Below, piece after piece: positions 1,704 through 60,457 of a stretch of DNA of 64,000 nt. The notes beneath the pieces were generated by a model. The model saw only the letters and a program-made list of their open reading frames with translations. It was not told the origin of the DNA and made no database searches. Both the position numbers and the translations under genes were made by a program. The number at the start of each line of letters is the position of its first letter. Position 1 is the first letter of the stretch. The DNA comes from Rhodocyclaceae bacterium (GTDB taxonomy: Bacteria > Pseudomonadota > Gammaproteobacteria > Burkholderiales > Rhodocyclaceae): NCBI GenBank assembly GCA_026415155.1, contig JAOAHQ010000034.1, forward strand, positions 1-64,000, given 5' to 3'.

Positions 1704-2425
1704 GCCTCGAGGCCGTCCTCTTCGACGTCGATGGCACGCTCGCCGACACCGAGGAGGCGCACCGCCAGGCCTTCAATGCCGCCTTCGAGGAGTTTGGCCT
1801 GCCCTGGCATTGGGATGCGCCGCTTTATCGGAAGCTCCTTGCCGTCACCGGCGGCAGGGAGCGCATCGCCCACTATTGCCGCGAGGTCGAGCCGGCGCGG
1901 CTTACCCAGCCCGGCATAGAGGAGTTCATCGCCCGGCTGCATGCGCGGAAGACCAAGCTTTACGAGGACATGGTGCGCGCAGGACAAATCGCCGTACGCC
2001 CGGGCGTGGTGCGCCTCCTTGCCGAGCTCAAGGCGGCGGGGATACGCCTTGCGATCGCCACGACGACCTCGCGCGCCAATGTCGAGGTGCTCTTGGCGAC
2101 CACCCTTGCCGTCCTGCCAGCGCCGATTTTCGAGGTGATGGGCTGCGGCGAGGAGGCCGCGGCGAAAAAGCCCGCGCCCGACGTCTATCTCTGGGTGCTC
2201 GAGCGGCTTAGCCTGCCTGCCGAGGCGTGCCTCGCCATCGAGGATTCGAGAAACGGCGTGCTGGCCGCCCGCTCAGCGGGCATCCCGGTGCTCGTCACCG
2301 AAAGCGCCTGGACGCAAGGCGAGGATTTTGCCGGGGCGGCGGCCGTGCTGCCCGATCTCGGCGAGGTCGATCTCGCCCGCTTGCGGCGCATCCACGAGGA
2401 GGCGACATGCCGCTCGTCGAGCTGA
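1700..2425 (+). CDS. cbbY: HAD-family phosphatase, CbbY-like
   Basis: MSLEAVLFDVDGTLADTEEAHRQAFN HAD motif I and CbbY-like sequence; ATG overlaps the cbbO stop. Confidence 0.85.
   Translation: MSLEAVLFDVDGTLADTEEAHRQAFNAAFEEFGLPWHWDAPLYRKLLAVTGGRERIAHYCREVEPARLTQPGIEEFIARLHARKTKLYEDMVRAGQIAVRPGVVRLLAELKAAGIRLAIATTTSRANVEVLLATTLAVLPAPIFEVMGCGEEAAAKKPAPDVYLWVLERLSLPAEACLAIEDSRNGVLAARSAGIPVLVTESAWTQGEDFAGAAAVLPDLGEVDLARLRRIHEEATCRSSS
2108..2130 (+). repeat. Dispersed 23-bp motif copy: GCCGTCCTGCCAGCGCCGATTTT
   Basis: Inside cbbY. Confidence 0.75.
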
Positions 2426-3567
2426 AGGACATGCTGCAGCAGGCGCGCGCCCACGGTTACGCCGTCGGCGCCTATGACGCCGTCGACAGCCACTTCGTCG
2501 CTGCGATCCTCGCTGGGGCGGAAGCCGCGCGCGCGCCGGTGATCGTCAGTTTCGCCGAATCGCATTTTTCCCATTACGATTTTCCGGCGCTCGTCGCCTG
2601 TGCCGAATCCTTGGCGCGCCGCGCCAGCGTGCCGGTGGCGCTGTTCCTCGATCACGGCGCGAGCATGGAAAGTGCCGTCGCTGCGATCCGCCACGGCTGC
2701 AACGGCGTGATGGTCGATGCTTCCCATCTCGACTTCGAGGCCAATGTCGCGGCGACCCGCGAGGTCGTCGCGATGGCCCATGCCGTCGGCGTGCCCGTCG
2801 AGGGCGAGCTCGGCTATGTGCCGGGGGTCGAGGGCGAGGATGCCGAGCGCCACCCCGGCGAGATGCGCCTTACCTCGCCCGAAGAGGCGGCGGCCTATGT
2901 CGCGGCGACCAGCGTCGACTTCCTCGCCGTCTCGGTCGGCACCGTGCATGGCCGCTTGCGCGGCGAACCAAGGCTCGATCTGGAGCGCCTCGCCGCGATC
3001 GGCGCGGCAATCGAGCAGCCGCTCGTCATCCACGGCGGCACGGGGCTTTCTGATGAGCAGTTCCGGGCGCTCATCGAGCGCGGCGTGGCGAAGATCAACT
3101 ACTACACGGCGCTTGCCGATCTCGCCGCCGCGGCGCTCGCGAAGGCGAAATCCGGCTATGCCGCGGCGCTCGATGCGGCGCGCCAGGCCATCGCCGCGGA
3201 GGTGGTGCGCACTTCGCAAGTCTTCGGCGCGGCGGGGCGGGCGGAGGAAGTGCTCGCCGCCTGCCGGCCCTGGCGCAACGTCGAGCATGTCATCCTCTTC
3301 AACTGGTCGGCGGAAGCGGCTGGGCGCGCGGCGGAATTCGAGCGCGAAGGCGAGGCGATCCTTGCCGAGGTGCCCGGCGTGCGTGAGGCGGTGGTGGGCC
3401 AGGCGATCCATGCGGATGCCCGCTACCAGCGTGCCTGGTTGATTCGCCTCGCGAGCCCCGCCGCGGAAGCGGCCTACATGCAGGACGCAAGGCATCTCGA
3501 GTATGCCAATCGCGTCTTCCGGCCCCACGCGGCCGACCGCATCAAGGGCGATTACGCGCGGGAGTAG
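2407..3567 (+). CDS. Class II fructose/tagatose-bisphosphate aldolase with C-terminal Dabb (stress-responsive A/B barrel) domain
   Basis: FLDHGAS, VMVDASH, EGELGYVPG, IHGGTGL class II aldolase motifs; C-terminus VEHVILFNWSAEA...HLEYANRVFRP resembles Dabb. Confidence 0.8.
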   Translation: MPLVELKDMLQQARAHGYAVGAYDAVDSHFVAAILAGAEAARAPVIVSFAESHFSHYDFPALVACAESLARRASVPVALFLDHGASMESAVAAIRHGCNGVMVDASHLDFEANVAATREVVAMAHAVGVPVEGELGYVPGVEGEDAERHPGEMRLTSPEEAAAYVAATSVDFLAVSVGTVHGRLRGEPRLDLERLAAIGAAIEQPLVIHGGTGLSDEQFRALIERGVAKINYYTALADLAAAALAKAKSGYAAALDAARQAIAAEVVRTSQVFGAAGRAEEVLAACRPWRNVEHVILFNWSAEAAGRAAEFEREGEAILAEVPGVREAVVGQAIHADARYQRAWLIRLASPAAEAAYMQDARHLEYANRVFRPHAADRIKGDYARE

Positions 3568-3569
3568 CG

Positions 3570-3935: not shown

Positions 3936-3942
3936 ACCCATC

Positions 3943-4392: not shown

Positions 4393-4408
4393 CCTCGGCG
4401 GGCGAAGT

Positions 4409-4431
4409 GCCGTCCCCCCAGCGCCGAGTTT
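4409..4431 (+). repeat. Dispersed 23-bp motif copy: GCCGTCCCCCCAGCGCCGAGTTT
   Basis: Between convergent psiE-like and SulP-USP; overlaps SulP-USP stop. Confidence 0.85.
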
Positions 4432-7076: not shown

Positions 7077-7154
7077 ATATTAGCAGAGAATCATAGACAG
7101 CCGCCGGCCGCCTCGCGGCGAGGCGCCGGGGTGATGACAGCGGCAGGGCGACGG

Positions 7155-7535: not shown

Positions 7536-7558
7536 GCCGTCCCGCCCGCGCCGAGTTT
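7536..7558 (+). repeat. Dispersed 23-bp motif copy: GCCGTCCCGCCCGCGCCGAGTTT
   Basis: Overlaps stop codon of DASS transporter. Confidence 0.85.
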
Positions 7559-11885: not shown

Positions 11886-11908
11886 GCCGTCTTGCCAGCG
11901 GCGAGTTT
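11886..11908 (+). repeat. Dispersed 23-bp motif copy: GCCGTCTTGCCAGCGGCGAGTTT
   Basis: Intergenic, upstream of gamma-CA. Confidence 0.75.
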
Positions 11909-12540: not shown

Positions 12541-12563
12541 GCCGTCCCGCCAGCGCCGACTTT
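12541..12563 (+). repeat. Dispersed 23-bp motif copy: GCCGTCCCGCCAGCGCCGACTTT
   Basis: Exact consensus, between convergent gamma-CA and sigma54 regulator. Confidence 0.9.
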
Positions 12564-12565
12564 CG

Positions 12566-13918: not shown

Positions 13919-15384
13919 TGGGGTTCCTTGTCGGGAAAGCGCAGCAGGAAGGTGGTGCCCTGGCCGGGGGCGCTTTTCACGGCCACGCAGCCGCCGTGTT
14001 CCGCGACGATCTCGAAGACGATGAAGAGTCCGAGCCCCGAGCCCTGGCCGACGTCCTTGGTGGTGAAGAAGGGGTCGCAGATGCGCGGCAGCACTTCGGC
14101 CGGGATGCCGCAGCCGTCGTCGCTGACTTCGATCTCGACGGCGCTACCGTCGCCGGCGCACTGGCCGAACACCAGTGCGTCGGCCGGGCAGGGCGCGGCG
14201 ACGCGGCGGGCGGCGATCGACAGATGGCCGGCGCCTGCCATCGCATCGACGGCGTTGCCGATCAGGTTGATGAGCGCCTGCTGCAGGCGCTGCTTGTCGC
14301 CAGCGAGCGTCAGCTCGGCGGGGATGGCGAGCGCGACCTCCACGCGGTCGGGAATGCGCGCCTTGGCAAGGCGCAGGCATTCCTCGACGAGCGGGGCGAG
14401 CGTGAGGTTTTCGCGGCGGAAGTCGCGCTCGCGCGCATAGTCGAGCAGGGAGCGCACGATGCGGCGCGCGCGCCAGGTCTCGGCGTCGATCTGCTCGAGG
14501 AGCTCCCGCTGAAAGGCCGTCCCGCCGGCGCCGATTTCTTCCTTGAGGATCTCGCAGGAGGTCGAGATGTTCGAGAGCGGGTTGTTGATCTCGTGCGCGA
14601 CGCCGGAGAGCAGCGTGCCGAGCGCGGCGAGCTTCTCGGCGCGCAAGAGCTGGCCCTGACGCTGTTCGAGTTCGTGGAGCACGCGGTTGAAGGCCGCGGT
14701 CAGCGAGACGATCTCGCGGTCGCCGCCGTCCATTTCGAGCTTGGCGAGCCGGCCGGCCGCCACGGCGGCCATGTTGCGCTCCATCTGCTTGAGCGGGCGG
14801 GCGACGCGGCGGGCCAGCAGTTGGCCCGCCAGACCGACGAAGAGGAGTGTGGCGACGATCGAGCCCATCAGCCAGTGGCGATGGCGGGCGAGCTGCTCGC
14901 GCAGCAGCGAGCGCTCGGCGCGCGCCCAGCCTTCGGCGACGGCGAGGATTTCCTTGCCGGCCTGGCGGATGTCGGCTTCGCGCAGCGGATTCTCGCCGTC
15001 GCGCGCATGCTCGGCCATCAGGGTGCCGTAGCGGTCGAGCAGGGCGCGCAGGCTGTCGATGCGCTCCGGCGTCGCGAAGGCGGCGAACGGTTCGGCGTGC
15101 TCGTCGAGGAGCCGTCGCGCCTGGGCGACCCAGGCGCGATGCTCGTCGAGATCGGCGGCCTGCCGGTAGAGGAAATAGTTTTTCTCGAAGCGGCGGATTT
15201 CGAGCGTCGCGCCGAAAAATTCGCCGATGCGCTCGCCGGCGACGATCTGCGTCTCGAGCAGCCGCATCTCGATCAGCGAAAAGACCGACAGGCCGATGAC
15301 GAAGGCCGCGACGGCGGCATAGCCGAGGACGATCTTGCGGCGCAGCGAGCCGGCGGGCCTGGCGGGAGGATTCATCGGTTGCAT
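13915..15384 (-). CDS. Sensor histidine kinase paired with the sigma54 activator
   Basis: TM segments, HAMP, GVAHEINNPLSNI H-box, HATPase motifs; overlaps the regulator (ATGA). Confidence 0.9.
   Translation of the reverse strand: MQPMNPPARPAGSLRRKIVLGYAAVAAFVIGLSVFSLIEMRLLETQIVAGERIGEFFGATLEIRRFEKNYFLYRQAADLDEHRAWVAQARRLLDEHAEPFAAFATPERIDSLRALLDRYGTLMAEHARDGENPLREADIRQAGKEILAVAEGWARAERSLLREQLARHRHWLMGSIVATLLFVGLAGQLLARRVARPLKQMERNMAAVAAGRLAKLEMDGGDREIVSLTAAFNRVLHELEQRQGQLLRAEKLAALGTLLSGVAHEINNPLSNISTSCEILKEEIGAGGTAFQRELLEQIDAETWRARRIVRSLLDYARERDFRRENLTLAPLVEECLRLAKARIPDRVEVALAIPAELTLAGDKQRLQQALINLIGNAVDAMAGAGHLSIAARRVAAPCPADALVFGQCAGDGSAVEIEVSDDGCGIPAEVLPRICDPFFTTKDVGQGSGLGLFIVFEIVAEHGGCVAVKSAPGQGTTFLLRFPDKEPQ
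14516..14538 (+). repeat. Dispersed 23-bp motif copy: GCCGTCCCGCCGGCGCCGATTTC
   Basis: Inside the histidine kinase gene. Confidence 0.8.
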
Positions 15385-18094: not shown

Positions 18095-18117
18095 GCCGTC
18101 CCGCCAGCGCCGACTTT
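18095..18117 (+). repeat. Dispersed 23-bp motif copy: GCCGTCCCGCCAGCGCCGACTTT
   Basis: Exact consensus, between SulP and the HyfB-like gene. Confidence 0.9.
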
Positions 18118-24786: not shown

Positions 24787-25304
24787 TGCTTCAGCTCCTC
24801 AAGCGCATCGTCAAGACCGGCCTCGTCAGCGAACCCGCGCCCGAAGTCGGCGACGCCAAGAGAGAGATCGATCGTCTCAACGACGAGATCCTGAAGATCC
24901 TCGGCCGTGCGCTGACGATCCGTGAGGTCGACGCGGGCTCCTGCAATGCCTGCGAGCTGGAAATCCACGCGCTCAACAACCCCTATTACAACCTCGAAGG
25001 CCGCGGCATCAAGTTTGTCGCCAGTCCCCGGCATGCCGACATGCTGCTCGTCACCGGCCCGGTGACGAAGAACATGGAGAACGCGCTCAGGATCGCTTAC
25101 GCGTGCACGCCCGATCCCAAGCTCGTCGTCGCCGTCGGCGATTGCGGCTGCGGCTGCGGCGAGGTCGGCCGGCTGTTCGGCCCGAACTATGCGACCGTCG
25201 GGCCGGTCGAGGCGGTCATTCCCGTCGACGTCAAGGTGCCCGGCTGCCCGCCGACACCCCTTACCCTGATGCAGGGCATCCTCGCCGCGGTTAGGACGCG
25301 CTGA
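24786..25304 (+). CDS. HyfI/NuoB-like small subunit retaining Fe-S cysteines
   Basis: SCNACELEIHALNNPYYN...GDCGCGCGEVGRLFG...VPGCPPTPLTLMQGIL. Confidence 0.9.
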   Translation: MLQLLKRIVKTGLVSEPAPEVGDAKREIDRLNDEILKILGRALTIREVDAGSCNACELEIHALNNPYYNLEGRGIKFVASPRHADMLLVTGPVTKNMENALRIAYACTPDPKLVVAVGDCGCGCGEVGRLFGPNYATVGPVEAVIPVDVKVPGCPPTPLTLMQGILAAVRTR

Positions 25305-26412
25305 AAGTCGGCGCCGGCGGGACGGCACACTGCGCCGCATCCTCGGCCCCGATGACCTCCAGCTGCCGCGAACGCCAGTCGAGCACCGCGGTGCGCATCG
25401 TCATCTTGCCGGCGAGCGTGGGAAACTCGGCGCGGATCACTTCAGCGGCAAAGCCGGAGAGAAAGCGGCTTTTGAGCTCGGCACGCGCGCGGTCGACGCC
25501 GATCTCGTCATACGGCGCGGAAGACAAGAGCAAAAAACCATCATCGGGAATGCGGCCAGCGGCCATGTTGGCCTCGATGATCGAGGCGGCGGTGCGCACC
25601 GGCTCGTCGAGCTTCGGGCTGTAGGGGCCGATGATCAGCGCGACGTTCGGCGTGTGCAAAAAGTCGAAGCCGCGGCCTAAGCAGATCATCCATTCGCGGT
25701 GGTCGAAGTCGAGCTGGCGCTCATGCCGCGCGATCTGTGCGCGCACCGTGGCGATGCGCGCGAGATTGCCTTCGAGCAGCGGCAGGAGATCGGCGCGCAT
25801 CTGCGCCGGCATGTCGGGCAGGAGCGCGGCAAGCCGCTCGGCGAGCTGCGGCCGTTCGGCTTCGCCGAGCGCGGCCAGGTCGAGCCGCGCTTCGCCCGCG
25901 CCATGCACGATCAGCGCATCCTCGTCGGTCTCGAGGCCGACGATGAGCGGATAGACGGTGCCGTGCGCGGCGCCGAAGATGTGCTCGATCTGGCGCTTGA
26001 TCTCATGGGTATGGCGGATCGCCGCGGCGGTGTCGTAGTGGAAGCCGGCGCAGCCCCGCTCGCGGCTGCCCTTGGAGAAGTGATAGGTGACGAGGATCAG
26101 CACGCGCCGCCCCATCCCGACCATCTGCAGGACGTGATGCGTGAGCACCTCGCCCAGGTGCGGCCAGCCGAGATCGAAGCGGCCGCCGAGGTTGCGCAGC
26201 GGCATCAGGATGCCGACGGGCGTGTTGGTCACCACCGGGATGTTGACACGCCCGTCCATGCACTTCATGACGACGATGGCGGTCGGGTGCTCGGCGAGAT
26301 AACGGCGGCGGGCGAGGCTCGCCTCGGGGCTGCGGAATTCGGCGCCGTGGCGCTCGGCGAGCTCGAACAGCCAGGCGATGCGTTCTTCGATCGGCTTGCC
26401 GTGGATCGGCAT
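25291..26412 (-). CDS. Putative divergent beta/CsoSCA-like carbonic anhydrase
   Basis: CMDGRV (C-x-D-x-R) and H-x9-C (HFSKGSRERGC) as candidate Zn ligands; autotrophy-associated neighbourhood. Confidence 0.55.
   Translation of the reverse strand: MPIHGKPIEERIAWLFELAERHGAEFRSPEASLARRRYLAEHPTAIVVMKCMDGRVNIPVVTNTPVGILMPLRNLGGRFDLGWPHLGEVLTHHVLQMVGMGRRVLILVTYHFSKGSRERGCAGFHYDTAAAIRHTHEIKRQIEHIFGAAHGTVYPLIVGLETDEDALIVHGAGEARLDLAALGEAERPQLAERLAALLPDMPAQMRADLLPLLEGNLARIATVRAQIARHERQLDFDHREWMICLGRGFDFLHTPNVALIIGPYSPKLDEPVRTAASIIEANMAAGRIPDDGFLLLSSAPYDEIGVDRARAELKSRFLSGFAAEVIRAEFPTLAGKMTMRTAVLDWRSRQLEVIGAEDAAQCAVPPAPTFSAS
25304..25326 (-). repeat. Dispersed 23-bp motif copy: GCCGTCCCGCCGGCGCCGACTTT
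   Basis: Overlaps HyfI-like stop and codes the C-terminus of the convergent CA-like gene. Confidence 0.9.
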
Positions 26413-28454: not shown

Positions 28455-29492
28455 ATGGCGCTGATGGATTTCATCAAGAAGCAGTTCATCGACATCATCC
28501 ACTGGACGGAGGAGGACGAGGAGACGCTCGCCTGGCGCTTTCCGATGGCCGACTTCGAAATCCAGTATGGCGCGGCGCTTACCGTGCGCGAATCGCAGAT
28601 GGCCGTGTTCGTCAACGAAGGCAAGGTGGCCGATGTCTTCGGCCCAGGGCAATACAAGCTCACGACGCAGACGCTGCCGGTGCTCACCTATCTCAAGAAC
28701 TGGGACAAGCTCTTCGAGTCGCCGTTCAAGTCCGACGTCTATTTCTTCAGCACGCGGCAGAAGCTCGACCGCAAGTGGGGCACGCCGAATCCGGTGACGA
28801 TCCGCGACAAGGAGTTTGGCATGGTGCGGCTGCGGGCCTTCGGCATCTATGCCTATCACATCGTCGATCCGGCGGTGTTTTTTCTCACCGTCTCGGGCAC
28901 GCGCGAGCGATACACGAGCGAGGAGCTCGAAGGGCAGCTCAGAAACAGCATCGTCGCCCACATCGCCGACCTCTTCGGCGAATCCGGCATGCCCTTCATC
29001 GACATGGCGGCCAACCAGCTCGAGTTCGGCCAGGCGCTCAAAGAGGCGGTGGAACCCTTGTTCAAGAGCTATGGCCTTGCTTTGGACAGCCTCGTGGTGC
29101 AGAACATCTCGCTGCCCGAGGAATTGCAGGCGCTGCTCGACAAGCGGATCGGCGTGAACATCATGGGCGGCATGAACGAATACACGCGTTTCCAGACCGC
29201 CGAGGCGATTCCGCTCGCGGCGGCCAACGAGGGCGGCCTCGCAGGCTTGGGCGCCGGCGTCGGCGTGGGTTTTGGCGTCGGCCAGCAAGTCGCGGCGGCG
29301 ATGGCACAGGCGATGAATCCCGCCGTCCCGCCAGCGCCGAGTTCGAGCACGCCGGTCTCGGCGACGCTGCCCGTCTCGCCCGACGAAGTGATCGCCACCA
29401 TCGAGAAGCTGCATGGCCTGGTCACGAAGGGCATCCTCTCGCAGGCCGAATTTGACGCCAAGAAAGCCGAACTGCTCAAAAAGCTCGGTTGA
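28455..29492 (+). CDS. SPFH-domain (virion-core-like/YdjI-type) protein with C-terminal SHOCT-like motif
   Basis: MALMDFIKKQFIDIIHWTE...; C-terminus IEKLHGLVTKGILSQAEFDAKKAELLKKLG. Confidence 0.8.
   Translation: MALMDFIKKQFIDIIHWTEEDEETLAWRFPMADFEIQYGAALTVRESQMAVFVNEGKVADVFGPGQYKLTTQTLPVLTYLKNWDKLFESPFKSDVYFFSTRQKLDRKWGTPNPVTIRDKEFGMVRLRAFGIYAYHIVDPAVFFLTVSGTRERYTSEELEGQLRNSIVAHIADLFGESGMPFIDMAANQLEFGQALKEAVEPLFKSYGLALDSLVVQNISLPEELQALLDKRIGVNIMGGMNEYTRFQTAEAIPLAAANEGGLAGLGAGVGVGFGVGQQVAAAMAQAMNPAVPPAPSSSTPVSATLPVSPDEVIATIEKLHGLVTKGILSQAEFDAKKAELLKKLG
29322..29344 (+). repeat. Dispersed 23-bp motif copy: GCCGTCCCGCCAGCGCCGAGTTC
   Basis: In linker of the SPFH gene. Confidence 0.85.
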
Positions 29493-33433: not shown

Positions 33434-35046
33434 GGCGGCGCGACTTCCTCGCCGTGGCGGCGAGCCTGCCGCTCATCGCCTGCACGAAGAAGAGCGCCCC
33501 GCCCTTGCCGCCAGGGACGCTCTCCGGCGGCGATTTCGCGCTCGGCCATCGGCTGCGCGCGGGCGATTTCCCCGCGCCCTCCGAGACGCGCCGCGTGCCG
33601 CTGTTGATCGTCGGCGCCGGCATCGCGGGGCTGTCGGCCGCCTGGCGGCTCGAGCGGGCGGGCTTGCGCGATTTCCTGATCTACGAACTGGAAGAGGCGC
33701 CGGGCGGCAATGCGCGCTTTGCCGAAAACGAGGTCTCGGCCTATCCCCTGGGCGCCCACTACCTGCCCTTGCCGACGCGCGAGGCGCGCGCGCTGCGCGA
33801 GCTGCTCGCCGATCTCGGCGCGCTCGAGGGCGATCCGCAGGCGGCGCGGCCGCATTACGATGAGCGGCTCTTGTGCGCCGCGCCCCAGGAGCGCGTCTAT
33901 CGGCAAGGCTTCTGGGAAGAGGGGCTCCTGCCGCGGCTGGGGGTTTCACGAGCGGTGCGCGAAGAATACGCGCGCTTTTTCGACCTCATGCAGGCATTGC
34001 GCGAAGCGCGCGACGAAGCGGGCCGGCGCGCCTTTGCCCTGCCGCTAGCCTTTTCTTCGCCCGCGCCGCGCTGGCGTTCGCTCGATGGCATCACGATGCG
34101 GCAGTGGCTCTTCGACCATGGCTTGACCAGTCCGGAACTTTACTGGTATGTCGATTACTGCTGCCGCGACGACTTCGGCACGCGCGCGGCCGAGACTTCG
34201 GCCTGGGCGGGGCTGCATTACTTCGCCTGCCGCAATGGCGAAGCGGCCAATGCTGCGCCCGAGACGGTGCTCACCGCGCCCGAGGGCAATGGCTGGATCG
34301 TCAAGCGGCTGGCGCCTCGCTTTGCCGACCGGCTCGTCACGGGTGCGCTCGCCTTTCGCCTCGCGCAGACGCGCCGTCGGGCAAGCGCCGACTTTTGGCT
34401 TGCCGCGGAAGGGCGCAGCCTGCGCATCGAGGCCGAGGCGATCGTCTGGGCCGCGCCGCCTTTCATGCTGCCCAAGGTGGCCGCCGGGCTGCCCGCGCCG
34501 ATCGCAGCTGCCTGCCGGGCCGAGACGGCGCCTTGGCTCGTCGCGAATCTGACGCTTTCCGCGCCGCCCGCGGCAGGTGCCGGCGCGGGGCTCGCTTGGG
34601 ACAATGTGCTCTATGGCAGCCCGGCGCTCGGCTATGTCGTCGCGACGCATCAGCATCTTTCCGCCGCGCCGGGGCCGACGGTGCTCACCTACTACCATGC
34701 GCTCGCCGAGATGCCGCCCGCTGCCGCGCGCGAGCTGCTGTTGCGCCGCAGCCAGCCCGAATGGGCGGCGCTGATCCTCGCCGAGCTTTCCCGCGCCCAT
34801 GCCGACATCGGCCGACTCACCAAGCGGCTCGACATTCACCGCCACGGCCATGCGATGGTGCGGCCCGTGCCGGGCCTGCTCTGGGGCGGCTCGCGCGCGA
34901 TGCTTGCCGCCGGCTGGGGGCGCGTGTTCTTCGCGCATGCCGACGTTTCAGGCCTGTCGCTATGCGAGGAAGCGAATTACCGCGGCGTCCTCGCCGCGGA
35001 GCGCGCGCTGGCCCTCCTCGGGCAGCGCGCCGTTTCGCTCCTCTGA
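33430..35046 (+). CDS. Exported (Tat/lipoprotein-like) FAD-dependent amine-oxidase-type oxidoreductase
   Basis: N-terminus MRRRDFLAVAASLPLIAC; dinucleotide fold LLIVGAGIAGLSAAWRLERAG. Confidence 0.8.
   Translation: MRRRDFLAVAASLPLIACTKKSAPPLPPGTLSGGDFALGHRLRAGDFPAPSETRRVPLLIVGAGIAGLSAAWRLERAGLRDFLIYELEEAPGGNARFAENEVSAYPLGAHYLPLPTREARALRELLADLGALEGDPQAARPHYDERLLCAAPQERVYRQGFWEEGLLPRLGVSRAVREEYARFFDLMQALREARDEAGRRAFALPLAFSSPAPRWRSLDGITMRQWLFDHGLTSPELYWYVDYCCRDDFGTRAAETSAWAGLHYFACRNGEAANAAPETVLTAPEGNGWIVKRLAPRFADRLVTGALAFRLAQTRRRASADFWLAAEGRSLRIEAEAIVWAAPPFMLPKVAAGLPAPIAAACRAETAPWLVANLTLSAPPAAGAGAGLAWDNVLYGSPALGYVVATHQHLSAAPGPTVLTYYHALAEMPPAAARELLLRRSQPEWAALILAELSRAHADIGRLTKRLDIHRHGHAMVRPVPGLLWGGSRAMLAAGWGRVFFAHADVSGLSLCEEANYRGVLAAERALALLGQRAVSLL
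34373..34395 (+). repeat. Dispersed 23-bp motif copy: GCCGTCGGGCAAGCGCCGACTTT
   Basis: Inside the FAD oxidoreductase gene. Confidence 0.7.
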
Positions 35047-35137: not shown

Positions 35138-36373
35138 TCACGCAAGCCAGAGCCAGACGAGCGCGGCGCTGCCCACGGTGATCGGCACGCCGATCCGAGC
35201 GTGTTCGAGCCAGCCGATCTCGATGCCGTCCTTCTTCGCGAGATCGGCGACGATCAGATTCGCGATCGAGCCGACGAGCAGCAGATTGCCGGCAAAGGTG
35301 GAAAAAAGCGCGAGCAGGTGGGCCGCTTTTACGCTGCCGATGGCGGGCAAGAGCAGCATCACGGCCGGCACGTTCGAGACGAGGTTCGAGAGCAGGATCG
35401 TGGCGAGGCCGAGCGAGGCGGGTTCGTGCAAGGCCAGCCCCTGCTCGGCGAGCCACTGGAAGGCCGCGGCGGCAAGTCCCGTGGTCTCGAAGGCATGGTT
35501 GACGACGAAAAGGCCGGCAAAGAGCACCAGGAGCTCCCAATCGACGAAACCGAGCACCTGTGAGGAATGGAAGCGGCGCGACAGGAGCAAGAGACCGGCG
35601 GCGATGAGGGCGGCCACTTCGCGCGGGAAACTCGTGAAGAGAAAGACGATGAGGAGCGCCGTGGCGATGAGGAGCCCTTTCGCGCTCTGCCAGCGATCGA
35701 AGGCGGGCGCTTCCTCGGCCGCCACACTCGGCGCTGGTGGGACGGCAGGTGCGCTTGGCAGCCGCCAGGCGAGGAAGCCCCACAGAAGCAGCAGTGAGAG
35801 CGCTACGGGCGGCAGCGCGGCGGCGCTATAGGCGGCGAAATCGAGCCGCTTGACCGCGCCGATCAGCATGTTCTGCGGATTGCCGATCAGGGTGGCTGCC
35901 GAGCCGAGATTGGCCGCGCAGGCGAGGCCAACGAGGAAGGGCAGCGGCGGCAGGCCGCGCGCCAGGCAGATGCGCGCGACGATCGGCGTCATGGCCAGAC
36001 ACACGACGTCGTTCGAAAACACCGCCGAGAGCGCGGCCGCGACGAAGATCAAGGCGCCCAAGAGCTGTGGCGGGGAAAGCGGCCAGGCGGCGATACCGCG
36101 TGTCACGGCGCTGTAAAAGCCGCCCAGCCGCATCTGCGCCGAGACGACCATGAAAGAAAAAAGGAGCAGCATCGTCGGCAGGTCGATGGCCTGGACGGCG
36201 GCAGCCGGATCGAGCGCGCCGCTGCCGATCATCGCGATCGCGCCCAAAAGCGCGATGCCAGTGCGGTCGAGCTTGAGCTTGGGCAGGCCGCCCAGGAACA
36301 TGCCGAGATAGACGATCGCGAAGATCGCGGCGATGCCCCAGTCGAGCGCATCAGGGGATAAGGCGGCAGGCAT
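35138..36373 (-). CDS. SLC13/ArsB-type anion transporter
   Basis: Multi-TM protein with SNDVVCLAMTPI and NLVSNVPAVMLLLP motifs. Confidence 0.8.
   Translation of the reverse strand: MPAALSPDALDWGIAAIFAIVYLGMFLGGLPKLKLDRTGIALLGAIAMIGSGALDPAAAVQAIDLPTMLLLFSFMVVSAQMRLGGFYSAVTRGIAAWPLSPPQLLGALIFVAAALSAVFSNDVVCLAMTPIVARICLARGLPPLPFLVGLACAANLGSAATLIGNPQNMLIGAVKRLDFAAYSAAALPPVALSLLLLWGFLAWRLPSAPAVPPAPSVAAEEAPAFDRWQSAKGLLIATALLIVFLFTSFPREVAALIAAGLLLLSRRFHSSQVLGFVDWELLVLFAGLFVVNHAFETTGLAAAAFQWLAEQGLALHEPASLGLATILLSNLVSNVPAVMLLLPAIGSVKAAHLLALFSTFAGNLLLVGSIANLIVADLAKKDGIEIGWLEHARIGVPITVGSAALVWLWLA
35725..35747 (-). repeat. Dispersed 23-bp motif copy: GCCGTCCCACCAGCGCCGAGTGT
   Basis: In loop of the SLC13/ArsB-like gene. 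Confidence 0.8.
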
Positions 36374-45303: not shown

Positions 45304-46577
45304 GAAGACTGCTTGCGGCCGGCATGCTGGCAGTTGCCTGTCTCGCGCAGGGCGCCGAGGTGGCCGATCTGCCACCTCAAGAGACAGTTCTCGAAGCCTT
45401 GCGCGTCCACCCGCAGGTGCAGGCGGCGCTCGCTGGCCTGCGCGCGGCCCAGGCGCAGCGCGACGGACTCCTGGCCGGGCCGCACGAATTCACGTTGCGC
45501 GCAATGGCGCAAAGCCGCAAGGACCGCAGCATCGACCAGCGCTACCGCGAGCATGAGATCGGCATCGAGCGCAGCTTGCGCCTGCCGGGCAAGGTGGCGC
45601 TGGACGCCGATCTCGGCACGGCCGGCCTCGAAGTCGCGCGTCATGCGCTCGGCGAGGCGCTGCATGCCGTCAGTCGCGAGCTGCTCGCACGCTGGTTCGC
45701 CTGGCAGCGCGAGGCGGCCGCCGTCACCGACTGGCAGGCGCAAGTGGCGATCTGGCGCGAACTCGAGACGGCCGTGCGCAAAAAAGTCGGCGCTGGCGAG
45801 ACGGCACGTCTCGAGGCGATGCTGATCGATGCGCAGCTCAAACAAGCCGAAGCCCAGCTCGCCCAGGCGCAGGCGCGGCGCGAACGCGCCGCGCGCGAGT
45901 GGCGGCAGCATTTCCCAGGCATTGGCCTGCCGGATGCGCCGCGGCTCGCCGAGCCGCAACCCATCGATGCTTCGCCGGATGCCATCGCGCGCTGGCGCGC
46001 GCGCATCCTCGCCGAGCACCACGAGCTCGCCGTCGCGCGCAGCGAGGCGCGCCGCAGCCGCCTTGCCGCCGCGCGCGCCGAGGCCGAGCGCCGGCCCGAT
46101 CCGACCGTGGGCCTGACGCTCGGCAGCGAGCGCGATGGCCAAGAGCGCTTGCTCGGCGTGCATCTTTCGATTCCGCTGCCAGGCGAAGCCCGCACGGCGG
46201 GCGCCCGTGCCGCCAGCGCCGAGGCCGATGCCGCCGCGGCGCGTGAAAGCCTCGCGCTGGCGCGCGCCGAGGCCGAGGCAAGCCAGGCCGTCGCCGCCGC
46301 GGCCGATGGCTTCACGCAATGGCGCCGCCATGCGGAGGTCGCACGGCAGATGGAGGAAAACGCCCGCCTCGTCGAGAAAGCCTGGCGGCTCGGCGAAGGC
46401 CAGTATGCCGAGCTGCAGGCTGCGCGCCGCCAGGCGATCGAAGCGCGGCTCGCCGCCAGCCTCGCGCTGCTCGAGGCCAATGAAGCGCGTTACCGGCTGC
46501 TGCTCGACGCGCACGAGCTATGGGATTTCGAGAGCATAGGAAGTGATGCGGATAAGCGAGACTTAAGCCAGCGCTAA
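45300..46577 (+). CDS. TolC-family outer-membrane efflux protein (CzcC-like)
   Basis: Signal peptide and paired long helices; operon context. Confidence 0.85.
   Translation: MRRLLAAGMLAVACLAQGAEVADLPPQETVLEALRVHPQVQAALAGLRAAQAQRDGLLAGPHEFTLRAMAQSRKDRSIDQRYREHEIGIERSLRLPGKVALDADLGTAGLEVARHALGEALHAVSRELLARWFAWQREAAAVTDWQAQVAIWRELETAVRKKVGAGETARLEAMLIDAQLKQAEAQLAQAQARRERAAREWRQHFPGIGLPDAPRLAEPQPIDASPDAIARWRARILAEHHELAVARSEARRSRLAAARAEAERRPDPTVGLTLGSERDGQERLLGVHLSIPLPGEARTAGARAASAEADAAAARESLALARAEAEASQAVAAAADGFTQWRRHAEVARQMEENARLVEKAWRLGEGQYAELQAARRQAIEARLAASLALLEANEARYRLLLDAHELWDFESIGSDADKRDLSQR
45784..45806 (-). repeat. Dispersed 23-bp motif copy: GCCGTCTCGCCAGCGCCGACTTT
   Basis: Inside the TolC-family gene. 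Confidence 0.85.
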
Positions 46578-47035: not shown

Positions 47036-47518
47036 ATGAATAAGTTCTTGCTGATCGCTGCCCTGCTTCCCTTGGCTGCCCACGCCGACGATCTGCGTCC
47101 GCTGCGCGATGCGCCGCCGGCCTTCCAGAGCGAATGCGGCAGCTGCCACGTCGCCTTTCCGCCGCAGCTCATGACGGCCGACGATTGGCGGCGCGTGATG
47201 CGTTCGCTCGACAAGCATTACGGCGACAACGCGAGCCTCGATGAAAAAACGCGCCAGCAGCTCGAAGACTTCCTCGTCAAGTACGCCGGCAGCGCGGCGA
47301 AAATCGGCGCTGGCAAGACGGCACGAGCGGGTGAACTACCGCGCCTGACACAAACCCCGTGGTTCGAGCGCAAGCACCGCGAGGTGAAGCCCGCCGACTG
47401 GCGGCATGCCAAGGTCAAGACGCCGGCCAACTGCGTTGCCTGCCACACGAAAGCGGCCGAGGGCAGTTACCGCGAGCGCGAGATCGTTTTGCCCGATGGC
47501 CGGCGCTGGGAGGATTGA
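47036..47518 (+). CDS. Diheme cytochrome c
   Basis: Signal peptide, CGSCH and CVACH. Confidence 0.85.
   Translation: MNKFLLIAALLPLAAHADDLRPLRDAPPAFQSECGSCHVAFPPQLMTADDWRRVMRSLDKHYGDNASLDEKTRQQLEDFLVKYAGSAAKIGAGKTARAGELPRLTQTPWFERKHREVKPADWRHAKVKTPANCVACHTKAAEGSYREREIVLPDGRRWED
47300..47322 (-). repeat. Dispersed 23-bp motif copy: GCCGTCTTGCCAGCGCCGATTTT
   Basis: Inside the diheme cytochrome gene. Confidence 0.8.
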
Positions 47519-50473: not shown

Positions 50474-51531
50474 CGGGGACGCGCTGGTTTTCCTTGCGCC
50501 GCCGGCTGTTGGTCTGGCTCTTGACCGGCGTGACCGTGAGCTGGCTGGGCGCGATGGGCTATGCCTGGTTTGAGGCGCGCCACGAGCTCGAGGAGCTCTT
50601 CGAAGAGCACCATGACGGCGACGAGGAACACGTGCGTCATGAGCTGGCCGAGCATTTCCTCGTCACGCTGTTTACGCCGCTTGCCGTTGGCCTGCCGCTC
50701 TTGGGTGCCTGGATCTGGTTTGCCACCCGGCAGGGCATGAAACCGCTCGATGGTCTTGCCGCGGAAATCGCTGCGCGCGCGCCCGAGCGGCTCGACCCGC
50801 TCGTCCCGCGAGCGGCGCCTCGCGAGATCCGCCCGCTCATCGAGGCCTTGAACGGCCTCTTTTCCCGCGTGGCGGCCTCGCTGGAGGCCGAACGGCGCTT
50901 TACGAGCGATGCCGCGCACGAGCTGCGCACGCCGCTCGCGGCCATCCTCGCGCAGGCGCAGGTGGCGCAGCGGGCGCGCGATGCGGCCGAGCGCGATCAT
51001 GCGCTGGCGCAAATCCAGGCAGGCAGCGAGCGCGCGCGCCGCCTCATCGATCAGCTTTTGACGCTCGCCCGGCTCGATCCGGCCGAGAACCTCCCGAAAG
51101 AGCACCTGCAGCTCGATCGCCTGGCGGCCGAGGTCTGTGCCGAGCATGGCCCGCTGGCGCTCGAGAAGGCCATTGCCCTCGAGCTCGAAGCCCCGCGTGA
51201 AGTCTTTGTCGATGGCAGCGCCGACTTGCTGCGCATCCTGTTGCGCAATCTGCTCGACAACGCGCTGCGTTACACGCCCGCCGGCGGGCGCGTTTGGGTC
51301 AAAGTCGGCGCTGGCCCGACGGCCGCCGAGCTCGCCGTTGCCGACGACGGGCCGGGCATTCCGGCCGAGGAACGGCACAACGTCCTGCGGCGTTTTTATC
51401 GCCTGGCCGGGCAGGATGTCGCGGGCAGCGGGCTGGGGTTGTCGATCGTCGCGCGCATCGCCGAGCTGCATGGCGCACGCCTTCTTCTCGAGGACAATCA
51501 GCCCGGTCTCAAGGTGCGGGTCGAATTCTGA
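50470..51531 (+). CDS. Sensor histidine kinase (QseC-like)
   Basis: FTSDAAHELRTPLAAILAQ H-box; ATGA overlap with regulator. Confidence 0.9.
   Translation: MTGTRWFSLRRRLLVWLLTGVTVSWLGAMGYAWFEARHELEELFEEHHDGDEEHVRHELAEHFLVTLFTPLAVGLPLLGAWIWFATRQGMKPLDGLAAEIAARAPERLDPLVPRAAPREIRPLIEALNGLFSRVAASLEAERRFTSDAAHELRTPLAAILAQAQVAQRARDAAERDHALAQIQAGSERARRLIDQLLTLARLDPAENLPKEHLQLDRLAAEVCAEHGPLALEKAIALELEAPREVFVDGSADLLRILLRNLLDNALRYTPAGGRVWVKVGAGPTAAELAVADDGPGIPAEERHNVLRRFYRLAGQDVAGSGLGLSIVARIAELHGARLLLEDNQPGLKVRVEF
51301..51323 (-). repeat. Dispersed 23-bp motif copy: GCCGTCGGGCCAGCGCCGACTTT
   Basis: Inside the QseC-like kinase gene. Confidence 0.8.
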
Positions 51532-52674: not shown

Positions 52675-53976
52675 TCAGCGAAACGGCGCAGTGATGAGGC
52701 CGACGAGGGCGCAGGCGCCGATCACTTTCATGATATCGAGCCGATATTTCCAGAGGGCGACGAAGCTTGCGAGGGCGATGGCGACCGCCAGCCAGTCGAT
52801 CGCGCCGGCGAAGGGCGCGGCGGGGTTTGCCTGCGGCCAGAAGGCATGCCAGGCGAAGAAGACGGCGAGATTGGCGATGACGCCGACCACGGCGGCGCTG
52901 ATGGCAGCAAGCGGCGCGGTGAATTTGAGCTCGCCGCGCGTCGCTTCGATGAGCGGCGCGCCGGCGAGGATGAACCAGAACGAGGGCAGGAAGGTGAAGA
53001 AGGTGGCCACCGCCGCGCCGGCGAGGCCAGCGCCGAGGTAGCCGACCCAGGTGACGATCATGATCAAGGGGCCGGGCGTCGTTTCGCCGAGCGCGAGGCC
53101 ATCCATCATCTGCGGGCCGGTGAGCCAGCCATACTGCTCGACGGCGTGCTGATAGACGTAAGGCAGCACGGCATAGGCGCCGCCGATGGTGAGGAAGGCC
53201 GCTTTCGTGAAAAACTCGCCCATGGCAAAGAGCGTGGGCGCCTCAGAGATCAGCCCCATGGCGAGCGCCCAGAGGGAGAGGAAGGCGAGCGTGGTGGCGA
53301 TGAGCTTGCGCCACGAAAAGACGGCGTGCGCCGGCGGCGGCGTGTGGTCATCGATGACGGCCGGCCCGCAGCGCAAATGCGTAGCGGCATGGCTGCCAGC
53401 ACCGACTTTGAACCAGGCCGGCGCGAGTTTTCCGCCGATGACACCGAGCAAGGCCGCCGTCAGCACGATCCAGGGAAAGCCGATCTGGAAGACGAAGATG
53501 CCGAGGAAGGCGGCCAGCGCGATGCCGCCCAACAGGCCATTGCGGATCGTCTTGCTGCCGATGCGCCAGGCGGCGAAGAGCACGATGGCCACCACGGCGG
53601 GCTTGATGCCATAAAAGAGGCTGGCGACGAGCGGCAGATCGCCAAATGCGAGATAGAGGGCGGCGAGCGCGCAAAGCAGCACGAAGGCCGGCAGGAAGAA
53701 GAGCACGCCGGCCAAGAGCGCGCCGCCGAGGCCATGCAGCAGCCAGCCGAGGTAGATGGCAAGCTGAATCGCCTCCGGCCCGGGCAAGAGCATGCAGTAG
53801 TTGAGCGCATGCAGAAAGCGCCGCTCGGAAATCCAGCGGCGTTTTTCGACGAGCTCCTCGTGCATCATGGCGATCTGCCCGGCCGGGCCGCCGAAGCTCA
53901 CGAAACCGAGCTTGAGCCAGTAGGGCAGGGCCTGGCCCAAGGTCGGCGCGGACGGGACGGCAGTGGATGGCTCCAT
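52675..53976 (-). CDS. chrA: Chromate-transporter (CHR) family protein
   Basis: FVSFGGPAGQIAMMHEELVEKRRWISERRFLHALNYCMLLPGPEA. Confidence 0.9.
   Translation of the reverse strand: MEPSTAVPSAPTLGQALPYWLKLGFVSFGGPAGQIAMMHEELVEKRRWISERRFLHALNYCMLLPGPEAIQLAIYLGWLLHGLGGALLAGVLFFLPAFVLLCALAALYLAFGDLPLVASLFYGIKPAVVAIVLFAAWRIGSKTIRNGLLGGIALAAFLGIFVFQIGFPWIVLTAALLGVIGGKLAPAWFKVGAGSHAATHLRCGPAVIDDHTPPPAHAVFSWRKLIATTLAFLSLWALAMGLISEAPTLFAMGEFFTKAAFLTIGGAYAVLPYVYQHAVEQYGWLTGPQMMDGLALGETTPGPLIMIVTWVGYLGAGLAGAAVATFFTFLPSFWFILAGAPLIEATRGELKFTAPLAAISAAVVGVIANLAVFFAWHAFWPQANPAAPFAGAIDWLAVAIALASFVALWKYRLDIMKVIGACALVGLITAPFR
53939..53961 (-). repeat. Dispersed 23-bp motif copy: GCCGTCCCGTCCGCGCCGACCTT
   Basis: N-terminal extension of ChrA. 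Confidence 0.8.
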
Positions 53977-56568: not shown

Positions 56569-56645
56569 GCGAATCGAGACACGGGTTAGATAACGCGGGC
56601 TACAATCTCACCAAAAATAGCGACCCAGGGGGACGGGTTAATAGA

Positions 56646-59210
56646 ATGCGCATCCGCAACTTCATTCTGGCCACCTCGGCGGCCGTGGCCGTTGGGTTCT
56701 TCGCCCTGAGCTACTACACGCTGGGGCGGGTGCTCGAACATTCAGTGCGCCGTAATGCCGAACAATCGGCCGATGCGCTGGCGCAGACGACCTTCGCGGC
56801 GATGTATCAGGTGATGAGCACCGGCTGGCGGCGCGCCCAGGCCGAGGCCTTCATCGCCTCGGTGGCCGAGGCGGCGGGCCGCGGCACGCCGACCACGCTC
56901 AACATCTACCGCGGGCCGGTGGTCGAGGCCGACTACAAGAAGATCGAGCAGCCGCCCTTCGATGCGCGCATCGAGGAAGTGTTCGCGACGGCGAAGCCCT
57001 TGCGCGAGGCGCCGGCCGGCGGCGTGCGCTTCCTGATGCCGCTTGTCGCGAACGAGCGCTGCCTGCGCTGCCACGATGCGGCGCAGGAAGGCGACGTGCT
57101 GGGCGTCATCGAGGTCAAGCAAGACTTTGGGCCGCTCTTGGCAGAGTCGCGGCGCGACTTTTTGCTCTGGATGGCGGGCTTGTCGCCCCTCCTCATGCTG
57201 GCAGCGGCTTTCGCGGTCTGGCGGGTGAGCCAGCGCATCGAGCGTTCGATCGCCGGTGTCGCCGAGTCGATCGCCGAGGTCGATGCCGTCGCCGATCTCA
57301 AGCACCTGCAGCTGCTGCGCCACGATCCAGGCTTCGAGGAATTCGAACGCCTTCTGCTCAGGCTCGATGTGCTCGTCGCCAAGCTGCGCGCAGTCGCGGT
57401 CGACAAAGACGTGCTGCAGTTTGAGATCGGCTTGCTCGAAAAATTCGTCATCACCTCCGAGGTGGTGCGCGACTGGGGCGAATACATCGCGCGGCTGCTT
57501 GCCGACATCAACCAGGTGATGACGACCCACATGCTGTTCTCGGTGTTCCAGGTCGATGACGAAGTGTTCGACCTCGAGCTCTTCTGGTTCAAGACGCCGA
57601 CCGAGGAGACACGCGCAATGGTCGAGCGCCATGTGCGCAGCGTCATTCAGACCGAGCGCCTCTCCGAGCTCGCCCAGGTGAGCTTGCATCACCATTACCC
57701 CACCGCCGGCGGCGAGCCGATCGCGCTCGACGAGCGGGATGTCGCGCTGCATACCAAAACCTTGATCGTCGATCATCCAAAGATTGGCGGCATCGTCGGC
57801 ATCGGCGTCAATGCCGAGGCGGTCGAGGACGATACGCTGCGGCTCGTCATGGACAGCATCCTGTCGACGATGCTCAACGTCGTCGGCTCGGTCAAGGCGA
57901 TCCACAAATACACGCGCGACATGGAGTATTACGCGACGCGCGATCCGCTTACCGATCTCTACAACCGCCGCGTGTTCTGGGAGCTCTTCGAATACGAGGT
58001 TTCGCGCGCCACCCGGCACGGCTATCAGTTCGCGCTGCTCGTCATCGATCTCGACAATTTCAAGCTCGTCAACGACAACTACGGCCATGCCATCGGCGAT
58101 CGCTATCTGCAGGCCATCGCCCATGCCATCAGAAGCATCCTGCGGCCCGGCGACGTCTTCGCGCGCTACGGCGGCGACGAATTCGTGCTGATCCTGCCCG
58201 ATACCACGCAGCCCGCGGCAGCGACGGTCGGCCAGCGCCTGCTCGACACCGTCAGTGCGCTGCGCCTCGAAGTCGAGGAAGGCCCGCCGATCACTGGCAG
58301 CGTCTCGATCGGGCTCGCTGTCTTCCCCTTGCATGCCAACAACGCCAAGGACTTGTTCCTCTTCGCCGACAACATGATGTACAAGGCCAAGCAGGCCGGC
58401 AAGCAGCAGGTCGGCATTCCGAGTGAAGAAGAGGTCGCCGAAGTGTTCCGCGACATGACGGCGACCACCGTGCAGGTCGTCAACGCCGTCAATGAGGGCC
58501 GCATCGTGCCCTTCTTCCAGCCCATCCTCGACATCCGCGCCAATCGCATCGTCGCCTTCGAGGTGCTCTCGCGCCTTTCATTCGAGGGACAGCACATCGA
58601 GGCCGGCCGCTTCATCGAATACGCCGAGAAGGCCGGCGTCATCCATCGCCTCGATATCATGGTCATGGAACAGGCGCTCGCCGCTGCTGCGGCGGCGCAG
58701 TTTTCCGGCTACATCTTCCTCAACCTCTCGCCGCGTGCGCTGGCGCTCGCCGACTTCCTCACCATGCTCAAGCGCACCATCAACGCCTGCGGCCTGCGGC
58801 CGGGCCAGATCGTCTTCGAGATCACCGAGCGCGACACCGTCAAGAACATCGTCTTGCTCGAGCGCCTGATTGCCGAGCTCAAGCTCGAAGGCTGCAAGCT
58901 CGCCATCGACGACTTCGGCTCTGGCTTCTCTTCCTTCCAGTATCTGCGCCGCTTCCCCGTCGATTTCCTCAAGATCGAGGGCGACTTCGTCGTCAACATC
59001 CTCGACAACCCGCGCGATCGCGCCTTTGTCGAGACGATCTGGAAACTCGCCGCCGATCTCGGCATCCAGGTCATCGCCGAACACGTCGAGGACGAAGGCG
59101 TGCTCGAGGCCTTGCGCGGCATCGGCGTCGACCTGGCGCAGGGCTATTTCGTGGGCCGGCCCGAGCGCGTGCTCGGCGAGAAGCTCCGTTTTCCGCTGGC
59201 CGAAGGATGA
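56646..59210 (+). CDS. GGDEF/EAL protein with periplasmic heme-binding (DUF3365/Tll0287-like) sensor
   Basis: CLRCH in the sensor, YGGDEFVLIL, FEVLSRL and IDDFGSGFSS. Confidence 0.85.
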   Translation: MRIRNFILATSAAVAVGFFALSYYTLGRVLEHSVRRNAEQSADALAQTTFAAMYQVMSTGWRRAQAEAFIASVAEAAGRGTPTTLNIYRGPVVEADYKKIEQPPFDARIEEVFATAKPLREAPAGGVRFLMPLVANERCLRCHDAAQEGDVLGVIEVKQDFGPLLAESRRDFLLWMAGLSPLLMLAAAFAVWRVSQRIERSIAGVAESIAEVDAVADLKHLQLLRHDPGFEEFERLLLRLDVLVAKLRAVAVDKDVLQFEIGLLEKFVITSEVVRDWGEYIARLLADINQVMTTHMLFSVFQVDDEVFDLELFWFKTPTEETRAMVERHVRSVIQTERLSELAQVSLHHHYPTAGGEPIALDERDVALHTKTLIVDHPKIGGIVGIGVNAEAVEDDTLRLVMDSILSTMLNVVGSVKAIHKYTRDMEYYATRDPLTDLYNRRVFWELFEYEVSRATRHGYQFALLVIDLDNFKLVNDNYGHAIGDRYLQAIAHAIRSILRPGDVFARYGGDEFVLILPDTTQPAAATVGQRLLDTVSALRLEVEEGPPITGSVSIGLAVFPLHANNAKDLFLFADNMMYKAKQAGKQQVGIPSEEEVAEVFRDMTATTVQVVNAVNEGRIVPFFQPILDIRANRIVAFEVLSRLSFEGQHIEAGRFIEYAEKAGVIHRLDIMVMEQALAAAAAAQFSGYIFLNLSPRALALADFLTMLKRTINACGLRPGQIVFEITERDTVKNIVLLERLIAELKLEGCKLAIDDFGSGFSSFQYLRRFPVDFLKIEGDFVVNILDNPRDRAFVETIWKLAADLGIQVIAEHVEDEGVLEALRGIGVDLAQGYFVGRPERVLGEKLRFPLAEG

Positions 59211-60457
59211 CGGACGCTGCCGACAAGCTCGCCAGCGCGCGCACGCGGCTCATCCTCGATCAGCCCTTCCTCGGCGCGCTGGTGCTGCGCCTGCCCTTGA
59301 AACCCGCCCACTGGTGCCGCACCACGGCGACCGATGCGCGCACGCTCTACTACAACCCGCGCTGGATCGAGCGCCTCTCGGGCCCGCAGGTCGAATTCGC
59401 GCTCGCTCACGAGGCGCTCCACTGCGCGCTCGGCCACTTTGCGCGGCGCGGCCATCGTCAGCAGCGCAAGTGGGACTTAGCTTGCGATCTGGCGATCAAT
59501 CCGCTGCTCGTCGATGCCGGGCTCAGGCCTCCGCCCGAGGCCCTCGTGATCGATCTTTATCGCGGCATGGCGGCCGAGGAGATCTACCCCTGCCTCGATG
59601 ACAGCCTCACCGAAAGCCAAATGATGGACGAGCATCTGTGGGACGGCGACGAGGGCGGGCGGGGGGAAGCGGGCAGCGCAGGCGCGGGCGGCGGCAAGGC
59701 CGGCGGACAGGAGGCCGAAAATGAAGGTAGTGGCGGCGCAACGCCGGCCAAAGTCGGCGCTGGCGAGACGGCAGGGATGGGCGCGGATGCGCCCCCCGCC
59801 CCTTTGCGCGCCCAGGAAAAAGAGCGCTTGCAAAGGCAGTGGCAGCGCCATCTTGCCGCCGCCGCGCAGCGCGCGCGCGAGGCGGGCAAGCTCTCCGGCG
59901 AACTGGCGCGTCTTGCTGAAGCGGCGCTTGCGCATCAGGTTTCCTGGCGTGCGCTCCTGGCGCAGTTCTTCGCCCAGGCAGCGCGCGACGACTACAGCTG
60001 GCAGCGGCCCGCGCGCCGCAGCGAAGGAAAAAACGGCGAGGCGATCTGGCCGAGCCTATCGAGCCGCATGGGCGACATCCATGTCGCGCTCGATGTCTCC
60101 GGCTCGGTGACGGAGGCCGATCTCGCGGATTTCCTCGGCGAATTGAATGCCTTGAAAGGCAGCCTGCCGGTGCGCATCACGCTCTTTGCCTGCGATAGCG
60201 ATCTTGCCGCCGGCGCGCCCTGGGTGTTCGAGCCGTGGCAGCCGCTCATCCTGCCGCGCCACTTCGCCGGCGGGGGCGGCACCTCGTTCCTGCCCGTCTT
60301 CGAATGGATCGAGCGGCAGGGGGCGCGCCCCGACGCGCTCGTCTATTTCACCGATGCCGAAGGCGAGTTTCCCAGGCAGCCGCCCAACTTTCCGGTGCTC
60401 TGGCTCGTCAAGGGCAAGGCGCCGGTGCCCTGGGGACGGCGCGTGCAGCTCAATTGA
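59207..60457 (+). CDS. DUF2201-type vWA/metallopeptidase-like protein
   Basis: LAHEALHCALGHFARRGH and MIDAS VALDVSGSV; ATGA overlap with upstream gene. Confidence 0.8.
   Translation: MTDAADKLASARTRLILDQPFLGALVLRLPLKPAHWCRTTATDARTLYYNPRWIERLSGPQVEFALAHEALHCALGHFARRGHRQQRKWDLACDLAINPLLVDAGLRPPPEALVIDLYRGMAAEEIYPCLDDSLTESQMMDEHLWDGDEGGRGEAGSAGAGGGKAGGQEAENEGSGGATPAKVGAGETAGMGADAPPAPLRAQEKERLQRQWQRHLAAAAQRAREAGKLSGELARLAEAALAHQVSWRALLAQFFAQAARDDYSWQRPARRSEGKNGEAIWPSLSSRMGDIHVALDVSGSVTEADLADFLGELNALKGSLPVRITLFACDSDLAAGAPWVFEPWQPLILPRHFAGGGGTSFLPVFEWIERQGARPDALVYFTDAEGEFPRQPPNFPVLWLVKGKAPVPWGRRVQLN
59750..59772 (-). repeat. Dispersed 23-bp motif copy: GCCGTCTCGCCAGCGCCGACTTT
   Basis: In linker of the DUF2201 gene. 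Confidence 0.85.

Follow-up and report, generated by a model that had tools for sequence, protein, structure and literature searches.

The window analysed here, i.e., the whole 64-kb stretch from position 1 to 64,000 of contig JAOAHQ010000034.1 of a Rhodocyclaceae bacterium (assembly GCA_026415155.1), carries a dispersed 23-bp motif, GCCGTCNNNCCAGCGCCGANTTT. The motif is real and recurs throughout the genome. We consider it fairly probable that several genera of Rhodocyclaceae have a DNA-uptake-signal-type repeat of which the motif is the main dialect, a bipartite system that would be the third and independent of those known and in which a type IV minor pilin would be the reader. In the literature searched we found no report of the motif letters or of uptake sequences in these genera; the motif is unreported there.

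Such signals are known only from Neisseriaceae, as DNA uptake sequences (DUS), and from Pasteurellaceae, as uptake signal sequences (USS) (PMC12616744). USS lack orientation bias, are spaced more regularly than random and prefer non-coding DNA although many copies are coding; they are family-wide and arise by point mutation, not insertion (PMC1626085). DUS occur as clade-specific dialects, with some family members lacking them altogether and with stray copies of foreign dialects (PMC3630211). The motif described here shares these hallmarks, i.e., genome-wide excess, no orientation bias, regular spacing, non-coding preference and clade dialects around a conserved core. Origin by substitution mostly applies too; the exceptions are a QueE-like gene with a gap and arrays of 54-bp units. 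Because the published hallmarks are present, apart from a lower density and more alignment gaps, we infer that the motif probably serves DNA uptake.

A dispersed 23-bp motif in the window and its genome

At up to three mismatches, the window contains 17 matches to GCCGTCNNNCCAGCGCCGANTTT, compared with a mean of 0.14 and a maximum of one in dinucleotide shuffles of the window. An initial annotation of this DNA had counted about 16 copies, and the over-representation it noted stands with the count now at 17. The copies are single, lie on both strands and occur in genes as well as between them, just as it had described; the host genes are unrelated in kind:

2108..2130, + strand: exact copy in a HAD-hydrolase gene (1700-2425, +)
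4409..4431, + strand: exact copy between the convergent genes 3943-4392 (+) and 4431-7019 (-, SulP permease)
7536..7558, + strand: one mismatch, 3' end of a DASS-symporter gene (7558-9036, -)
11886..11908, + strand: one mismatch, intergenic
12541..12563, + strand: exact copy, intergenic, convergent genes on either side
14516..14538, + strand: two mismatches, coding sequence (open reading frame call uncertain there)
18095..18117, + strand: exact copy, intergenic
25304..25326, - strand: one mismatch, near the 3' end of a carboxysomal-carbonic-anhydrase-like gene (25291-26412, -)
29322..29344, + strand: one mismatch, in an SPFH/Band-7 gene (28455-29492, +)
34373..34395, + strand: one mismatch, in a flavin oxidoreductase gene (33430-35046, +)
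35724..35746, - strand: one mismatch, in a CitMHS-transporter gene (35138-36373, -)
45783..45805, - strand: exact copy in an outer-membrane efflux protein gene (45300-46577, +)
47300..47322, - strand: exact copy in a dihaem cytochrome c gene (47036-47518, +)
51301..51323, - strand: exact copy in a histidine-kinase gene (50470-51531, +)
53939..53961, - strand: degenerate copy with three mismatches, start of gene 52675-53940 (-)
59750..59772, - strand: exact copy in a DUF2201 (VWA-like) gene (59207-60457, +)
63464..63486, + strand: degenerate copy with three mismatches, in gene 63146-64000 (+)

No Rfam families were found in the window, and no link of the motif to tRNAs was seen there.

With one mismatch allowed, the window's own genome (G000; 2.38 Mb in 70 contigs) holds 413 copies; with two allowed, the count rises to 521, split 261 to 260 between the strands. 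A reversed-pattern control yielded 0 matches over the whole genome. The initial annotation had staked its proposal on counts above a Markov expectation and on copies beyond the window; both are found, as the 413 and 521 genome-wide copies against none in the control demonstrate.

The consensus reads GCCGTC-YYG-CCAGCGCCGA-S-TTT, spans 23 bp and is non-palindromic. In a 464-kb sample its information profile drops off sharply at both ends of the 23 bp, and the flanks are without conservation; only directly 5' of the motif is A avoided. GCCGTC, described initially as invariant, is kept by all 17 window copies, but genome-wide its C6 is present in about 90%. The following three bases had been taken as free and are not: they are mostly YYG, with C or T at position 7 in 92% and G at position 9 in 86% of copies. 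Position 20, before the final TTT, was written as N at first and is C or G in most copies. The motif occurs about once per 4-5 kb.

Dialects, half-site spacing and distribution

The main form is nearly lacking in genus g69 (G086); instead, the G086 genome contains 139 exact CCAGCGTCGACTTT, of which G000 has none, and the dialect consensus of the genus is GCCGT-N-YCC-CCAGCGTCGACTTTT. A further dialect, CGCCGTGCYG..GGACTGACTTTT, was found in genus g11 (G028). In the main form and in both dialects GCCGT and GACTTT stand exactly 12 bases apart, and the dialects differ from one another by point changes at this constant spacing. Exact GCCGT-N12-GACTTT was counted 50 times in G000, 34 in G017, 23 in G002, 10 in G028, 9 in G086 and 5 in G064. 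As a control, eight other gap lengths gave means of 0 to 0.25 per genome (0.0 in G000). The pair was absent from the sampled DNA of G006, G023, G033, G036 and G082, and 20 further genera, sampled at up to 20 kb each, had isolated occurrences only (one in G035, two in G063, one in G065). A constant gap around a variable inner sequence suggests a single DNA-reading protein with shifted specificity. An origin by chance or as a by-product of codon usage has only the high G+C content in its favour and is practically out of the question: it is ruled out by 521 copies versus 0 in the reversed control, and by 50 half-site pairs versus 0.0 on average at other gaps.

In the genus of G000, 18 of 19 genomes, its own included, carry 363-746 copies. 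G006, of the same genus, has 0, and its sampled sequence is without any other strong repeat. Nearly all members sampled of genera g2, g9, g62, g70 and g88 have tens to hundreds of copies, most remaining Rhodocyclaceae genera 0-15, and outside the family there are stray copies only. At up to one mismatch, metagenome-assembled genomes (MAGs) labelled Rugosibacter contain 183-235 copies, those labelled Sulfuritalea 124-319 and one labelled Propionivibrio dicarboxylicus 516; several Rhodocyclaceae bins are further named carriers. The family assignment of carriers is based on these MAG labels.

In few-copy genomes (G036, G123, G168, G339 and others) exact main-form copies lie in small clusters. This is as expected for DNA received from carriers into otherwise motif-free genomes, and bin contamination may explain some MAG cases, such as Sideroxydans WOFB26, which to judge by its name belongs to one sampling series with Rugosibacter WOFB27.

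Placement, spacing and origin of the copies

Coding sequence was assigned by a home-made gene caller; of 102 copies at up to two mismatches, 69 are wholly coding, 10 partly coding and 23 wholly non-coding. As non-coding positions make up 5.2%, the latter are enriched 4.4-fold (P ~2e-9), and copies are commoner than expected between genes and near gene ends. This excess would suit a transcription terminator or another transcription signal, as would the strong hairpins into which inverted 54-bp arrays (see below) would fold. A single copy, however, folds at only -2.6 kcal/mol, and about two-thirds of the copies lie in genes in both orientations, 37 opposite to and 32 along the gene, which makes such a signal highly improbable. 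Within genes the motif is read in several frames and on both strands, e.g., as AVPPAPT, RRLASADF, KVGAGGTA or KSALAGR.

The copies are more evenly spaced than random. The coefficient of variation of the spacing in G000 is 0.62 versus 0.96 for random placement, with none of 5000 simulations as low, and gaps below 500 bp number 2 versus 10 expected. The initial annotation had given roughly one copy per 4 kb; beyond this, the spacing is significantly even. Orientation does not flip between replication arms in the closed or nearly closed genomes G002 and G017; a polar site of the Chi or KOPS (FtsK-orienting polar sequence) type, independent as the motif is of the replication fork, was rejected.

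The longest motif-free gap found measures 18.5 kb (L253:16036 to L254:14556, i.e., G000:C31:56036-74556) and contains pilM-pilN-pilO-secretin, aroK, aroB and gltB. The pil genes in it have 47-56% GC, the genome 65%.

Even spacing, constrained fixed positions and a fixed half-site distance would also be seen if the motif were bound by an intracellular protein that compacts, anchors or repairs the chromosome, and the lack of ComEA in most carriers tested (see below) speaks for such a site as well. We regard this main rival as unlikely. The motif has no orientation relative to replication arms, unlike KOPS or Chi, and is not limited to one macrodomain; its absence from G006 and from most genera of the family would be odd for a housekeeping element, and genus-specific dialects are typical of uptake sequences. 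Chi, KOPS and matS are likewise short, over-represented and read by proteins, but the motif is far longer, unpolarised, not regionally clustered and absent from most of the family. An intracellular function would make it a genus-switchable, evenly spaced chromosome motif, at least equally surprising. Among the functions suggested initially, an uptake-like one appears from sequence to fit best, and Chi- or KOPS-like polarity is absent.

Orthologous sites were compared in G002 and G017, whose genomes are 88% identical. In 52 of 69 comparisons the motif was kept at the same length (up to three mismatches); in nine more the length was the same but the motif degenerate or lost, and eight had gaps. 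At sites with up to one mismatch, identity is 93-96% at fixed positions, 74-78% at free positions and 85% in the flanks; constraint thus acts on the fixed positions but not on the free ones. Among the window copies, 14516..14538 has a same-length counterpart with two mismatches at the orthologous place in G011 and G013, and the site aligned to 18095..18117 in G004 is an exact copy too. Against motif-free relatives, motif peptides are 30% identical and whole proteins 61%, and 15 of 30 protein alignments are ungapped at the motif. For example, 51301..51323 encodes KVGAGPTA, and a motif-free relative has GATAQGDA at the same place without a gap. Low peptide identity together with ungapped alignments indicates that the motif overwrote residues at permissive places. 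Copies arise mainly by substitution.

Two proteins carry extra residues instead, with alignment gaps of 8-9 and 18 amino acids at the motif; we take these QueE-like and TrpC-like proteins to be QueE and TrpC. Moreover, about one-tenth of the sites in G002 and G017 are extended by 54-bp tandem units (18 codons when in frame), for example:

L265:6161-6291: 54-bp tandem units (G002/G017)
L342:18901-19031: 54-bp tandem units (G002/G017)
L272:7238-7368: 54-bp tandem units (G002/G017)

Each unit has an inverted motif-like arm, and the units form a strong, long hairpin (-39.7 kcal/mol). They are sometimes in frame within genes, and their copy number differs between G002 and G017.

In their hairpins these units resemble repetitive extragenic palindromic (REP) elements and REPINs. 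The hairpin units of variable number and the two gaps would suit a reading of single 23-bp copies as remnants of a short mobile, REP- or miniature inverted-repeat transposable element (MITE)-like repeat. This is very unlikely, however. The single motif is non-palindromic and mostly coding in several frames, with no conservation beyond 23 bp; orthologous differences are mostly same-length substitutions; only one 54-bp pair occurs among 118 G000 sites; and point changes at constant spacing set the dialects apart. Whole-unit presence or absence at orthologous sites and a mainly extragenic location, as for REP/MITE-like elements, were not found. The preference of the initial annotation for a protein-recognised sequence over a decayed mobile element is supported by the fixed half-site spacing, the same-architecture dialects, the same-length substitutions and the copies in many genes.

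Candidate uptake machinery and known uptake signals

In the favoured uptake reading, extracellular DNA would be recognised through both half-sites by a receptor on the cell surface, for which a type IV minor pilin is the likeliest candidate. Motif-bearing DNA would then be drawn in by pilus retraction and imported through ComEC. Self DNA would be imported preferentially, and its recombination would replenish the copies by uptake-bias molecular drive. Dialects would reflect changes of receptor specificity. Candidate receptors are encoded in a minor-pilin operon adjoining ispH, i.e., a ComP_DUS-family pilin and a neighbouring FimT/GspH-type pilin. The G000 minor pilin, at G000:C25:1819-2241, scores 46 bits against Pfam ComP_DUS (cut-off 27.3), and G017 also has a pilin of this family; a structure model of the ComP-family pilin, with a mean predicted local distance difference test score (pLDDT) of 55.6, was too poor to use. 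ComEC is present in nearly all carriers searched, in open frames without stops. Prepilin-type proteins number 14-17 per genome, G000 encodes PilM, PilN, PilO and a secretin, and G017 has a ComF/GntX-type gene that itself contains a motif copy. DprA was not found in the sampled part of the DNA; no genome-wide DprA search was made.

Several observations weigh against uptake. Of 12 main-motif carriers tested, only G105 yielded a small ComEA (HHH_3). It was not found in G000, G001, G002, G004, G009, G011, G017, G019, G026, G079 and G141, nor in the dialect genome G086, and G017 lacks it even though its genome is closed; it was readily found in the motif-free G023 and G036. Matches to the ComEA profile in ComEA-less carriers are open frames of about 800 amino acids, probably Tex. 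In Vibrio cholerae ComEA is required for uptake (PMC3879209). Furthermore, the motif-free G006 has both ComEC and a ComP-family pilin, so neither of them tracks the motif. The idea of one pilin gene tracking the motif was rejected, as pilin identity does not separate carriers from non-carriers. The machinery evidence is hence permissive but not discriminating. Half of the protein alignments are gapped near the motif compared with 24% for Haemophilus influenzae USS (PMC1626085), and the motif density lies several-fold below that of DUS and USS (roughly one per kb). The literature searched yielded no competence assay for these organisms.

The missing ComEA would also be accounted for if the motifs were relicts, accumulated in an ancestor under uptake bias and now decaying after the loss of competence in many carriers. 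Many copies in G002 are indeed one mismatch off (28, with 22 exact). Fixed positions are nevertheless still conserved at 93-96% between G002 and G017, with free ones at 74-78%, and the ComEC frames are free of stops. We judge relicts to be quite unlikely.

DUS, with ComP as receptor, resemble the motif in having hundreds to thousands of copies on both strands, in and between genes, and in their clade dialects, motif-free family members and stray foreign-dialect copies; AT-DUS even contains GCCGTC. They differ in being continuous (10-13 bp versus bipartite 23 bp here), and in a conserved CTG core where positions 6-8 here are C-Y-Y. Here, the motif is several-fold sparser with few inverted pairs, and ComEA was not found in most carriers tested. 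Receptor and uptake are putative here. The ComP family, to which the DUS receptor belongs, is represented in the carriers G000 and G017 as well as in the motif-free G006. Neisserial DUS proper was rejected because its 12-mer with CTG core is not kept. The resemblance that the initial annotation had called possibly coincidental allows no stronger claim, since the CTG core common to all DUS dialects (PMC3630211) is lacking.

USS of Pasteurellaceae, with ComN/PpdA as proposed receptor, are likewise discontinuous, with a T-rich segment at a fixed distance from the core, subclade-specific types, even spacing and an origin by point mutation. In contrast to the motif, they have an unrelated sequence, two AT-rich segments instead of one short TTT, and a higher density.

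Generalities on receptor-signal coevolution rest on two cases because self-specific uptake is documented in two families only (PMC12616744). More tentatively, Rhodocyclaceae could be a third family with an independently evolved uptake signal, built on GCCGT-N12-GACTTT, with at least three dialects through a receptor diverged for the sequence between the half-sites, and without canonical ComEA; we see this as possible but have somewhat more doubt than belief. If true, free-living bacteria would offer a third, independent case whose dialects hold two half-sites at a fixed distance, and the coevolution of receptor and signal could be tested directly, as could the origin of uptake bias and whether ComEA is needed. 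The motif would also serve as a built-in marker for gene flow inside Rhodocyclaceae and outward from them; the family is common in groundwater and wastewater.

Other repeats were observed besides the dispersed motif. A viral-filed contig (L025:883-2238, IMGVR_UViG_3300009945_000063) carries a tandem array of units of about 316 bp with one motif copy each and integron-like CCTAAC/GTTAGG ends, which suggests integron cassettes in a row more than a phage. Genus g65 (G082, L387-L389) has a different dispersed repeat, GTGGGAGCGGGCTTGCCCGCGA, which is REP-like and often occurs as inverted pairs. In G000:C4:1-60000 (L241-L243), TTCCCAAAATG, GTCTCAATCCCTTTGAA and similar words are over-represented with 12-13 occurrences in the sample, possibly as part of a CRISPR or other array.

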